Below, piece by piece: positions 1 through 3,438 of a DNA stretch of 13,923 nucleotides (its first letter is position 1; each line of letters starts with the position of its first letter). Location: positions 1-13,923 of the forward strand of contig CANDEX010000042.1 of assembly GCA_947383875.1 (NCBI GenBank). Reading direction: 5' to 3'. Under the pieces are notes generated by a model, which was not told the DNA's origin, searched no databases, and worked only from the letters and a program-made list of their open reading frames with translations. This stretch comes from an uncultured Azospirillum sp. Its GTDB lineage: Bacteria; Pseudomonadota; Alphaproteobacteria; RF32; CAG-239. The position numbers were made by a program, and so were the translations under genes.

Positions 1-245
1 AATTACCTGAAGGATATCGCGTCCCCGACATCCGGGAGTTAACATTAATTCACTTAAATATCGAGGACGTAAATGCCGGATTAACAGCCGCAAACGGTGA
101 AAAACTGGAAAGCTGGTATTGGTCCTCTACCGAGTACGGTAATACCAGTGCGTGGGGTTTCGCTATGGGTAATGGTAGTAGGTACAACAGCAGTAAGAAC
201 GGTAACAATAACTACGTCAGGCCGGTTCTCGCTGTTAAGCTTTAA
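1..245 (+). CDS. C-terminal end of a DUF1566/C-type-lectin-like protein, probable DGR target (5' partial)
   Basis: The open frame begins at base 3 and gives the last 80 residues of a protein cut by the window edge. The first part reads LPEGYRVPDIRELTLI, typical of the Lcl/DUF1566 fold. It is followed by WYWSSTEY and, at the very end, NYVRPVLAVKL. These motifs mark the C-type-lectin/formylglycine-generating-enzyme-like scaffold that displays variable residues in many diversity-generating retroelements. Between them lies a 25-residue Asn/Gly/Ser-rich stretch. The protein would be a binding or receptor-recognition protein, for instance on a phage tail or cell surface, but the N-terminal part that would show its location is missing. 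DUF1566 proteins also occur without DGRs, so the fold is more certain than the hypervariability. Confidence 0.75.
   Translation, partial: LPEGYRVPDIRELTLIHLNIEDVNAGLTAANGEKLESWYWSSTEYGNTSAWGFAMGNGSRYNSSKNGNNNYVRPVLAVKL
114..236 (+). other. Candidate DGR variable region (VR)
   Basis: In the codons for residues 45-71 of the partial protein, 22 of 27 end in T or C. Most are AAY or one or two A-substitutions from AAY (GGT, AGT, AGC, ACC, TAC, TTC, GCT). This is the footprint of adenine-directed mutagenic retrohoming, in which template AAY codons are diversified. The flanks (WSSTEY before, VRPVLAV after) are not of this kind. The template repeat and reverse transcriptase are not in the window and would lie to the left if local. 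Confidence 0.55.
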
Positions 246-258
246 CTATTTAGCTATT

Positions 259-285
259 TTGAGGGTGGCGGAATAGGTAGACGCT
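259..285 (+). pseudogene. tRNA-Leu-like 5' half (acceptor strand and D-arm only)
   Basis: GGTGGCGGAATAGGTAGACG (264-283) matches the conserved start of bacterial tRNA-Leu. T266 sits at tRNA position 8, the D-stem GCG (268-270) pairs with CGC (282-284), and the loop carries the GG of the A box. After base 285 there is no pairing anticodon arm, variable arm, GTTC T-loop or CCA, and the ribosome binding site of the next gene starts at about 294. It is therefore a truncated tRNA relic or a tRNA-like element, not a working tRNA. Confidence 0.55.
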
Positions 286-446: not shown

Positions 447-833
447 ATGTCATATTTAGAAGAACTTTTGCCCGAGTTCAGAAACGGGGCAAAGATTAGG
501 CGAAAAGATTGGGGAGAGAAAAAATATATTAAATTATGTGGATTGTATGCAAAAGATGAATACGGTGACAGTTACTTTTTAGAACCTAACGAATTAACAG
601 CGGATGATTGGGAAATTTACCAAGAGCCTATTGATTGGGATTATATCATCAAAAATAAATGTCTGTGCTGGCTTTGGGATAATGGCTTAGGAAGGAGAGA
701 AACAGGATTGCTAATCTCAGTCAACATGGATGAAGAATATCCTTTTGAAGATAACAACAATATGGGGTTTAAAAAGTGCCGCCCCGTACGCAGAGATGAA
801 GTAACTTTTTATGAGGGTAGAGAAAGTGAGTGA
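447..833 (+). CDS. Phage-type protein with N-terminal Tad2-like (DUF2829-type) domain, candidate anti-Thoeris
   Basis: The ATG at 447 is preferred over an in-frame ATG at 420 because GGAG at 435-438 is correctly spaced from it. The product is 128 residues. Residues 4-58 (LEELLPEFRNGAKIRRKDW, then KYIKL, ending ADDWEIY) follow the layout of the DUF2829/Tad2-like family: a short helix, a K-x-x-R-x-x-W strand, a YI strand and a closing DDWE. Characterised Tad2 proteins sequester the cyclic-ADP-ribose signal of Thoeris defence. Residues 63-122 form a second module (CLCWLWDN ... CRPVRRDEVTFY) of a type found in phage-associated small proteins. Family membership is judged by eye; anti-defence activity is inference, and many DUF2829 proteins are untested. 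It sits in a cassette of small phage genes, where anti-defence genes often occur. Confidence 0.6.
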   Translation: MSYLEELLPEFRNGAKIRRKDWGEKKYIKLCGLYAKDEYGDSYFLEPNELTADDWEIYQEPIDWDYIIKNKCLCWLWDNGLGRRETGLLISVNMDEEYPFEDNNNMGFKKCRPVRRDEVTFYEGRESE

Positions 834-1041
834 AAATAAACCACAAGTTGGCGATATATGGGAAATATATGACCCTAACGCAGGAACGTATAAAGCTATA
901 GTCATTAATACATCTGACTTTGTCAATCCTTATTGTATTACTGAGGATTTTCAGGGAGCATTTTTATGGGGATATACTACTGAAACATATATCGGCAAAA
1001 GCAAAGCTAATATCAACGATTTGTTTGAGATTAGGGAGTAA
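826..1041 (+). CDS. Small phage-type protein of unknown function (about 71 residues)
   Basis: The frame is open from an ATG at 811, but a GTG at 826, overlapping the previous stop (831-833) and preceded by GAGGG, looks like the better start; the longer form would have 76 residues. The product has a soluble beta-type character: SENKPQVGDIWEIYD at the N-terminus, a hydrophobic core around residues 30-50, and a closing YIGKSKANINDLFEIRE. Short proteins opening with VGDIWE and ending in this kind of motif are common in phage and island cassettes, but no function is known to me. It is packed between its neighbours with overlap on one side and 5 bases on the other, so it is probably co-transcribed. 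Confidence 0.6.
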   Translation: MSENKPQVGDIWEIYDPNAGTYKAIVINTSDFVNPYCITEDFQGAFLWGYTTETYIGKSKANINDLFEIRE

Positions 1042-1046
1042 GTAGA

Positions 1047-1226
1047 ATGAATTTTTATGAAGCAAGAGTTGACGTTTTAGAAAATGAAAAAGAAGAACTA
1101 CAACAAAAGCTAGATATTGCGATGGATGCTTTGGAAAAATACAAAATAGAAGATGAAACAAACAATATCAGTGAGGATGTTAGATTTGCGGAAATCGCTT
1201 TAGCAAAGATAGCGGAGATTAAGTGA
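1047..1226 (+). CDS. Small coiled-coil protein of 59 residues
   Basis: The ATG at 1047 follows GGAG (1034-1037) and lies 5 bases after the previous stop. The product is almost entirely helical and charged. Residues 1-35 (MNFYEARVDVLENEKEELQ and on) have heptad-like hydrophobic spacing, suggesting a coiled coil. A short polar break (ETNNISED) is followed by a second helix ending AKIAEIK. The stop TGA (1224-1226) overlaps the next ATG (1226-1228), a coupling arrangement. No family is recognised. It may be a small oligomeric accessory or phage regulatory protein; that is a guess from shape alone. Confidence 0.55.
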   Translation: MNFYEARVDVLENEKEELQQKLDIAMDALEKYKIEDETNNISEDVRFAEIALAKIAEIK

Positions 1227-1973: not shown

Positions 1974-2360
1974 ATGATTCGACAAACTTGTCAAAATAAT
2001 ATAAAGAGAGTCTTAAACGCTAAAGAAGCACAGGCTTATCTTGGTATTCCGCGTTATTCCTTTGAAAAAGCCGTCCAAAATGGTGATATTGAATATAAAC
2101 TCATTGGGCGCAAAAAATTTTATCCCGTCTGGTGTTTAGATAAATGGCAAAACGACACAACGAACCATATAGATTGTTCAAAAGAGGCGACATCTACCAT
2201 GCCTATATCTCGTATATTGACGAAAACGGAGCCAGAATACAGTTTAGAGAGACTACTCGAACAACGGATGAAGCAAAAGCAATCCAATATTGCATCAAGA
2301 GAATTGCGCAATTGCAAAAGAAAGCTCGTCAACAAGCCAATGGTGAATTGCCCTGCATAA
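1974..2360 (+). CDS. Excisionase-like helix-turn-helix protein overlapping the integrase gene
   Basis: The ATG at 1974 has a GGAG (1960-1963) about 10 bases upstream. Residues 10-62 (VLNAKEAQAYLGIPRYSFEK, then GDIEYKLIGRKKFYPVWCLDKW) are a clear MerR/excisionase-type winged HTH of the kind that directs integrase in element excision. The frame stays open to 128 residues and overlaps the integrase by 217 bases in another frame. Residues 63-128 are polar and basic, including a KQKQSN stretch. It is uncertain whether this tail is selected protein or incidental readthrough over the integrase start. The pairing HTH-integrase at an element end supports the excisionase call. Confidence 0.65.
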   Translation: MIRQTCQNNIKRVLNAKEAQAYLGIPRYSFEKAVQNGDIEYKLIGRKKFYPVWCLDKWQNDTTNHIDCSKEATSTMPISRILTKTEPEYSLERLLEQRMKQKQSNIASRELRNCKRKLVNKPMVNCPA

Positions 2361-3223
2361 CCATTGACGAGGCGTTTGCCCGTTATTTTCAGGAAAAAGG
2401 CCAATATCTAACTCTCCCCCAACAAAGATTAAGCCGCTTATCAAAACTCAAACATGATTTAAAAATATACTATTTACACGAAATTACCGAACTGCAAATA
2501 AACAGCTTCATTACTCAAAATCGCGGCACACTAAGCAATTCCACAATAAACCGCTATCTTTACCTTCTTTCCGCCGTTTTAAGAACCGCAAACGAAGAAT
2601 GGAAAGTAAAAACTTACCCCATCAGGCTTTCAAAATTTAAACTTAAAGAACCTGCTGAAAATATCAAATATCTGAAAGATTGGAATTATGCTCAAAGAAT
2701 AATAGATAAAGCTGCGGATCATTTAAAGCCAATTATATATACGGCACTCTATACAGGATTTCGCGAAAGTAACATCCTTAATCTTAAATGGTCAGAAATA
2801 GATTTTAACACCGGACAAATAACATTGAAAGTCAAGGATTCCACAAAATCCGGAGGAAAAATCCACACAATGCCAATTGCCAAGCCTTTAATGGCGATCC
2901 TTGAAAATCAACCCAAAATTAATAACTATGTTTTTAACTATAAAAATAAACCAATCAAAAGCATCTCTACTGCTTGGCGCAATATTTTCTATAAAAGAAA
3001 CACAAGAAAATCTTTTAGTAGGGAATTGAAAGATCCAACCTTGCCTTACACAAACTTTCATACACTACGCCATACTTTTGCAACTTGGGTTTTGCGCAAA
3101 ACAAAAAATCTAAGAACGACAAAAGAACTTTTAGGCCATGCTAATATCAATACAACATTAAAGTATGCGCACACGCTTGACGATGAAAAACGTCAAGCAC
3201 TAGATTCAGTTTTCATCGATTAA
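2144..3223 (+). CDS. Tyrosine recombinase/phage integrase
   Basis: This is a site-specific recombinase of 359 residues, the usual length for phage and island integrases. Residues 8-60 resemble the N-terminal arm-binding region (YRLFKRGDIYHAYISYI). Residues 72-160 form the SAM-like core-binding domain. The catalytic domain from about 176 contains all expected residues: R207 in TGFRESNILNLKW, K235 in the beta-hairpin, H306 and R309 in HTLRHTFATW, H332 in LGHANI and the nucleophile Y341 in TTLKYAHT. It should therefore be active. The start at 2144 lacks a strong ribosome binding site and lies inside the HTH gene, suggesting translational coupling. It is transcribed toward tRNA-Phe, whose 3' end lies 140 bases beyond the stop and is the likely attB. 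It would catalyse integration and, with the HTH protein, excision. Confidence 0.92.
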   Translation: MAKRHNEPYRLFKRGDIYHAYISYIDENGARIQFRETTRTTDEAKAIQYCIKRIAQLQKKARQQANGELPCITIDEAFARYFQEKGQYLTLPQQRLSRLSKLKHDLKIYYLHEITELQINSFITQNRGTLSNSTINRYLYLLSAVLRTANEEWKVKTYPIRLSKFKLKEPAENIKYLKDWNYAQRIIDKAADHLKPIIYTALYTGFRESNILNLKWSEIDFNTGQITLKVKDSTKSGGKIHTMPIAKPLMAILENQPKINNYVFNYKNKPIKSISTAWRNIFYKRNTRKSFSRELKDPTLPYTNFHTLRHTFATWVLRKTKNLRTTKELLGHANINTTLKYAHTLDDEKRQALDSVFID

Positions 3224-3332: not shown

Positions 3333-3360
3333 TAAAAGCCTTGGAAAACCAAGGCTTTTA
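3333..3360 (-). terminator. Hairpin terminator of tRNA-Phe, possibly bidirectional
   Basis: A perfect 12-base-pair stem (3333-3344 with 3349-3360, core AAAAGCCTTGG) closes a 4-base loop. It begins two bases after the tRNA CCA end. On the minus strand it ends in TTTTATTG, and its A/T-flanked stem could also stop integrase transcripts from the other side. Confidence 0.75.
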
Positions 3361-3362
3361 GA

Positions 3363-3438
<76 letters not shown>

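Follow-up and report, generated by a model that had tools for sequence, protein, structure and literature searches.

A candidate phage-borne target of a host-type diversity-generating retroelement at a tRNA-Phe gene of an uncultured alphaproteobacterium

Phage diversity-generating retroelements (DGRs), such as that acting on mtd of BPP-1, encode their own reverse transcriptase (RT) and usually target a tail protein, and BPP-1 diversifies its own protein in cis. DGRs with DUF1566 targets occur in human microbiomes and genomes and are described with their RT, template repeat (TR), and variable repeat (VR) in the portions of two reports considered here (PMC4159848, PMC6642488). Remote DGR targets are documented, in the parts of the articles drawn on, for Treponema denticola (PMC4891356), cyanobacteria (PMC7517822), and Thiohalocapsa PB-PSB1 (PMC10907252). 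A prophage-borne target of a host DGR was not found in the portions consulted of the DGR literature (PMC8144416, PMC6642488, PMC4159848, PMC10907252, PMC7517822, PMC4891356, PMC3521204), preprints being outside the scope of the comparison.

The window analyzed here, meaning the whole stretch of 13,923 nucleotides from contig CANDEX010000042.1, starts inside the coding region of a variable protein (VP). The explanation that we favor, with somewhat better than even confidence, is that this VP gene is cargo of a phage residing at a tRNA-Phe gene and that a host-type DGR, acting in trans, rewrites its VR.

The gene end at the left edge of the window

The open reading frame (ORF) at 3 to 245 (plus strand) is open at its 5′ end, which lies outside the window, and comprises the last 80 codons of the VP gene, terminating in LESWYWSSTEYGNTSAWGFAMGNGSRYNSSKNGNNNYVRPVLAVKL and a stop codon. 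It matches the Lcl_C (DUF1566) domain (PF07603; 36.2 bits against a cutoff of 34.9, E value 8.4e-9). The VR at 120 to 233 (plus strand) runs from WSSTEY to YVRPVLA, and its 114 bases equal in length the TRs of two relatives of the host, G137 and G141. Within it is a hypervariable stretch at 138 to 212 (plus strand), 17 codons of which are Asn in the G137 template, with scaffold residues between them. The VR closes with the YVRPVLA segment at 213 to 233 (plus strand), which is conserved in the alignment and is where, as in BPP-1, the predicted initiation-of-homing (IMH) site would lie. No perfect stem of at least 6 bases (loop 3 to 8) is present in the 90 bases past the VR; a perfect stem follows 9 of 14 other VRs examined, and three VRs that differ from their templates at adenines only are without one.

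A homologue search gave 339 sequences at an E value of 0.001, of which 120, at 51 to 73% identity, were listed and compared together with the window protein. WSSTE...RPV is kept in 121/121 of these sequences and the region between the two ends differs in all 121, a distinctness that is partly by construction because the database was clustered at 90% identity. Most of the scaffold is invariant among the 71 sequences that have the length of the window protein; columns 14, 16, and 37 show slight variation, and much variation is seen at column 13, for which the template has a Lys codon. The remaining variation is confined to the 17 template-Asn columns, at which 1173 of 1207 residues can be reached by changing AAY to NNY; of the 34 residues that cannot, 33 fall at three columns. 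These features bear out the original prediction of a hypervariable, DGR-type C terminus at the left edge: the Lcl_C domain, the fixed scaffold, and the variation between its two ends are all real.

The same prediction had counted 22 of the 27 codons from position 138 as ending in T or C, which is exactly right, and had taken this pattern as the fingerprint of a DGR target. The DGR reading holds, on template and homologue evidence, but the count does not hold as its proof. Values of 22 or more occur in 61 of 3402 overlapping 27-codon segments from 12 other ORFs of the window (maximum 24), so the codon-ending count was discarded as evidence for a DGR, and, since the count alone is unspecific, independent evidence was sought. 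T/C-ending codons at this frequency are thus not rare here, and this, together with the part that database clustering plays in keeping the homologues distinct, is what could be said for ordinary fast evolution or codon bias with no DGR at all. We regard that explanation as very improbable, since differences from the best template are concentrated at template adenines (see below) and a fixed scaffold is combined with NNY-type residues at the template-Asn columns.

The structure model of homologue P0006 (135 amino acids) has a pLDDT of 96.6, and its closest folds are those of Legionella Lcl and Bdellovibrio Bd2740. With the fold modeled on this homologue, the VR, which is 3′ terminal in its gene, would be part of a C-type-lectin fold, and the gene product is probably a binding protein of this fold. 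Matches to the folds of vertebrate lectins were set aside, as they show only that the fold is common. Seven phage records match P0006 at 37 to 45% identity, and the plasmid collection, searched with P0006 as the only homologue, gave no match. By eye, P0001 and P0006 have no obvious signal peptide. Single-protein scans with the host gene, the integrase, and the VP returned zero loci.

The RT and the TR had been described as absent from the window, and this agrees with what the window contains: the ORFs that were scanned, a subset of the whole, gave no RT match, and blastn with bases 96 to 260 detected no second copy in the window, only matches of 10 to 13 bases.

Templates and retroelement loci in relatives of the host

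Relatives of the host were drawn from a sample of 153 genomes of the order, reached via a metagenome-assembled genome of an uncultured Alphaproteobacteria bacterium. A host protein, which we take to be AccC, is 93 to 94% identical to its counterparts in 11 of the 153 genomes. A relative of the RT is present at an E value below 1e-60 in 25 of the 153 and at 0.001 in 34, the extra matches being weak, and five of the 11 genomes nearest by AccC have one (G128, G136, G137, G141, and, in part, G130).

The loci of G136, G137, and G141 are organized alike, by eye, with a target gene, an Avd-like gene, the TR, the RT, a small helix-turn-helix (HTH) gene, a membrane protein gene, and a ligA-like gene. 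In G001 the membrane-protein and ligA-like neighbors recur, and there are three TR copies; its Avd scores above the Pfam cutoff (PF22296), and no HTH ORF is listed at its locus. Judged from the neighboring genes, the DGR locus of the relatives is chromosomal. The RTs match Pfam RVT_1 and contain IGNLTSQ and YVDD, which we take to be marks of DGR enzymes. No NCBIfam model is above cutoff for them, the best being a group II intron RT that is far below it, and the locus is assigned as a DGR because Avd and TR are present rather than because of an RT model.

TRs were called N-rich when they encode at least ten Asn, a rule that undercounts and misses, for example, the TR-like repeats of G128, which is the nearest genome by AccC. 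By this one criterion, an N-rich TR with the scaffold of the window is present at 11 of the 25 RT loci of chromosomal type versus 0 of 43 related-RT loci from IMG/VR. An ungapped scan with 20 N-rich TRs from 11 genomes found 28 distinct matching segments, some of which are themselves TRs. Seven VR-TR pairs within five genomes (two each in G137 and G046, and one each in G136, G141, and G073) differ at adenines only; a VR of G137, compared with the TR of its own genome, is mismatched at 20 of 48 A and at none of the 66 other bases. Lcl_C matches are numerous in related genomes, with at least 27 in one of them (27 of up to 93 candidates scored), and only some of the relatives' Lcl_C genes are current DGR targets.

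The window VR was aligned with the five N-rich TRs of equal length, the other 15 of the 20 having different lengths. The best template of the five is the TR of G137, from which the VR differs at 20 of 48 A versus 6 of 66 non-A positions (Fisher P = 7e-5), and a similar bias is seen with the TR of G141 (17 of 44 A versus 10 of 70 non-A, P = 0.006). Against these TRs, both of other species, the differences lie mainly at template adenines. The three remaining TRs, from less related genomes, have non-A mismatches at 24/73 to 31/77 positions, and the adenine excess is absent (P = 0.42 to 0.84). The TRs of G137 and G141 were also the only ones to reach the window VR in a scan of 357 sequences (the window and L001 to L356), which was ungapped and allowed at most 16% non-A mismatches, such that matches with insertions would be missed; the same scan found no IMG/VR locus with a VR matching a host TR. 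The original prediction had called for a template of 100 to 140 bases differing at adenines, and such a TR exists in a relative of the host, although not as an exact match.

Five of the six non-A differences between the VR and the G137 TR are at third codon positions, one of them changing Leu to Phe, and the sixth, at the first base of an Arg codon, belongs to a synonymous change. Differences of this kind would be expected for a template of another species, and the DGR reading of the window gene is well supported. The six non-A differences could also belong to a fossil, a VR that was formerly diversified and is a target no longer, which is compatible with a phage location and is also suggested by the lack of a perfect hairpin past the VR. 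In relatives, too, some VRs depart from their own genome's TR at many non-A positions, and the window VR could resemble these targets. Nevertheless, we consider a fossil unlikely, since the TR compared comes from another species and the G137 and G141 TRs differ from each other as well. Moreover, the gene retains an open frame, and the fraction of template A left unchanged, 58% in the window VR, equals that in the seven adenine-only pairs (57 to 68%).

The order also contains a second DGR scaffold, with templates ending in NRVRCVLA; G046 contains three copies of such a TR and G067 contains two (L124, L125, L155). G046 has three tandem targets of family GMYYYSDGTISAEV, two of which differ from a TR at adenines only. 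Two to four N-rich TR copies are found near one RT in six genomes (L094:2399-3132; L114, L119, L124, L125, L128), not all of them identical, and from these non-identical copies the templates themselves seem to duplicate and drift.

The phage-like element at tRNA-Phe

The VP gene and the small genes downstream of it share one coding strand. The first of these small genes (447 to 833, plus strand; scanned as ORF 420 to 833) has a weak match, below cutoff, to Tad2-like Thoeris antidefense proteins (PF11195; 23.8 bits against 25). The second (811 to 1041, plus strand) has relatives at 28 to 37% identity in phage contigs L340, L333, L334, L338, and L339, and a third small gene is at 1047 to 1226 (plus strand). 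An excisionase-like HTH_17 gene at 1974 to 2360 (plus strand), whose relatives stand beside related integrases, overlaps a tyrosine integrase gene at 2144 to 3223 (plus strand; PF00589, E value 2.6e-24). The integrase gene begins 1.9 kb downstream of the VP gene and stops ∼140 bases away from the 3′ terminus of a tRNA-Phe gene (3363 to 3438, minus strand), the predicted attachment site, and relatives have tRNA-Phe in the same neighborhood. Beside the tRNA 3′ end, at 3334 to 3359 (no strand assigned), is a terminator-like hairpin that is also found beside tRNA-Phe of G138 and G141.

The 41-kb IMG/VR contig L340 codes for an integrase with 73% identity to that of the window and an HTH protein with 51% identity, and relatives of both are also present in genomes with phage-like genes. 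In stretches of 3 to 6 kb flanking tRNA-Phe in G128, G131, G138, and G141 (ORFs up to 4.5 kb), no related integrase was seen by eye; the comparison spans only 340 bases in G137 and 18 bases in G133, and G138 may have another element at this place. The original prediction placed the gene in an integrated element, and the integrase adjoining tRNA-Phe makes this likely. We infer that positions 1 to ∼3360 are one end of a temperate phage, with the VP gene in its early region.

A 22-base sequence (264 to 285, plus strand) that resembles the 5′ end of tRNA-Leu lies in the gap that follows the VP gene, ahead of the next ORF. A 26-base pattern containing it occurs in 46 IMG/VR stretches (L358 to L403), several of which, such as L360, continue by eye with an insert, followed by an end that resembles a T arm and acceptor, the window having the 5′ part only. 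The standard T-arm test is positive in 1 of 48 rows of these tRNA-Leu-like stretches, ARAGORN finds no tRNA at the corresponding places in 14 loci, and Rfam at gathering thresholds finds none in ten.

A prophage of this kind could have its own complete DGR to the left of the window, diversifying its own protein in cis, and the window does start inside the VP gene, with the left part of the element out of view. An integrase profile led to 25 IMG/VR loci; the search for Lcl_C and RT covered the nine with at least 40% identity, the other 16 being at 24 to 29%. One of the nine, G158 (L357), has an RT and, just upstream, a TR-like, N-rich ORF (MLRTNYWLSS...NIRAPLDF), as a DGR encoded by the phage itself would. 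However, the YWLSS...NIRAPL scaffold of that ORF is a different one, and the other eight records, several of them short fragments, contain no RT match. Lcl_C is absent from all nine, several of which are fragments. Among the TRs compared, the VR is best matched by one from a near relative of the host, and the VP gene seems to lie in an early region near the integrase rather than in a tail module. On balance a cis-acting DGR of the phage seems unlikely.

The gene could instead be an ordinary chromosomal remote target, its junction with the phage being an assembly artefact or the relic of another element. VP genes occur in several copies, and a contig end lies within 1 kb of 13 of the 20 VP profile matches in G136, G137, and G141. 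The GC content of the VP end (0.44 to 0.48) is like that of the host genes (0.41 to 0.50), the remaining element being at 0.34 to 0.37. Because so many VP genes lie near contig ends and this GC content is host-like, a wrong join is possible. In G137 and G136, moreover, VP genes with the similar ending YVRPVLALKL stand beside ordinary genes. Against this, LPEGYRVPDIRELTLIHLNI is common to the window VP and P0001 to P0003 and was not seen in the relatives' VPs that were inspected, the best match of a profile of these proteins in the 153 order genomes reaches 77.7 bits (G137), and the VP has the same coding strand as the small genes downstream. We therefore rate a purely chromosomal target as improbable. 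The position of VP genes near contig ends suggests in its own right that DGR targets may break these assemblies, in which case surveys could undercount them. Lcl_C paralogues of G067 and G135 were considered as phage-borne targets and rejected, as those inspected stand, by eye, among chromosomal-looking genes.

Proposed mechanism and comparison with known systems

Under the favored explanation, a phage-borne target rewritten in trans, positions 3 to 245 would be the 3′ end of a VP gene that is cargo of a temperate phage, placed in its early region and integrated at tRNA-Phe of an uncultured alphaproteobacterium, with a lectin-fold domain in which a fixed scaffold would hold ∼17 randomized codons. 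RNA of the TR would be copied by an adenine-mutagenic RT with Avd, and the resulting cDNA would replace the VR of the phage gene in trans. Rewriting in trans by a host-type DGR is proposed because, of the templates found, the one that fits best belongs to a relative of the host. We infer that the host of the window has such an RT and TR, acting on the VP gene, and that the VP gene is truly in a prophage. The suggestion that the element may carry a self-diversifying binding protein needs refining as to the machinery, whose nearest likeness lies beside ordinary genes in relatives.

More broadly, the temperate phages of this order may carry small VR-bearing lectin-fold genes without RT or TR and parasitize a host DGR at a conserved locus that also serves several host targets, a generalization that we hold tentatively, at a little under even confidence. 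A phage doing so would need no more than a 114-base landing site to obtain a protein that varies by itself. The window gene is a target tied to a host-type DGR with no RT in view and apparently on a mobile element; if this is correct, a host and its phage can share DGR activity, and the recognition specificity of a prophage protein would depend on the host in which it resides.

The folds nearest to the P0006 model, the C-terminal domain of Legionella Lcl (8q4e) and Bdellovibrio Bd2740 (8oks), have 17 to 24% identity, and the likeness does not imply a shared ligand. The window gene has in common with the DUF1566 DGRs, as described in the portions of PMC4159848 and PMC6642488 considered, the target domain, a C-terminal VR, and adenine-biased differences; those systems have RT, TR, and VR, whereas the window has neither RT nor TR. 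In phage DGRs (BPP-1 mtd; PMC8144416, in the part consulted), the target is in the phage, as proposed for the window gene, but the RT is phage encoded. The remote targets of Treponema denticola, cyanobacteria, and Thiohalocapsa are similar in that VRs lie far from one RT/TR core, some of them by action in trans, and, unlike the window gene, they are not described as prophage cargo in the parts of those articles drawn on here.
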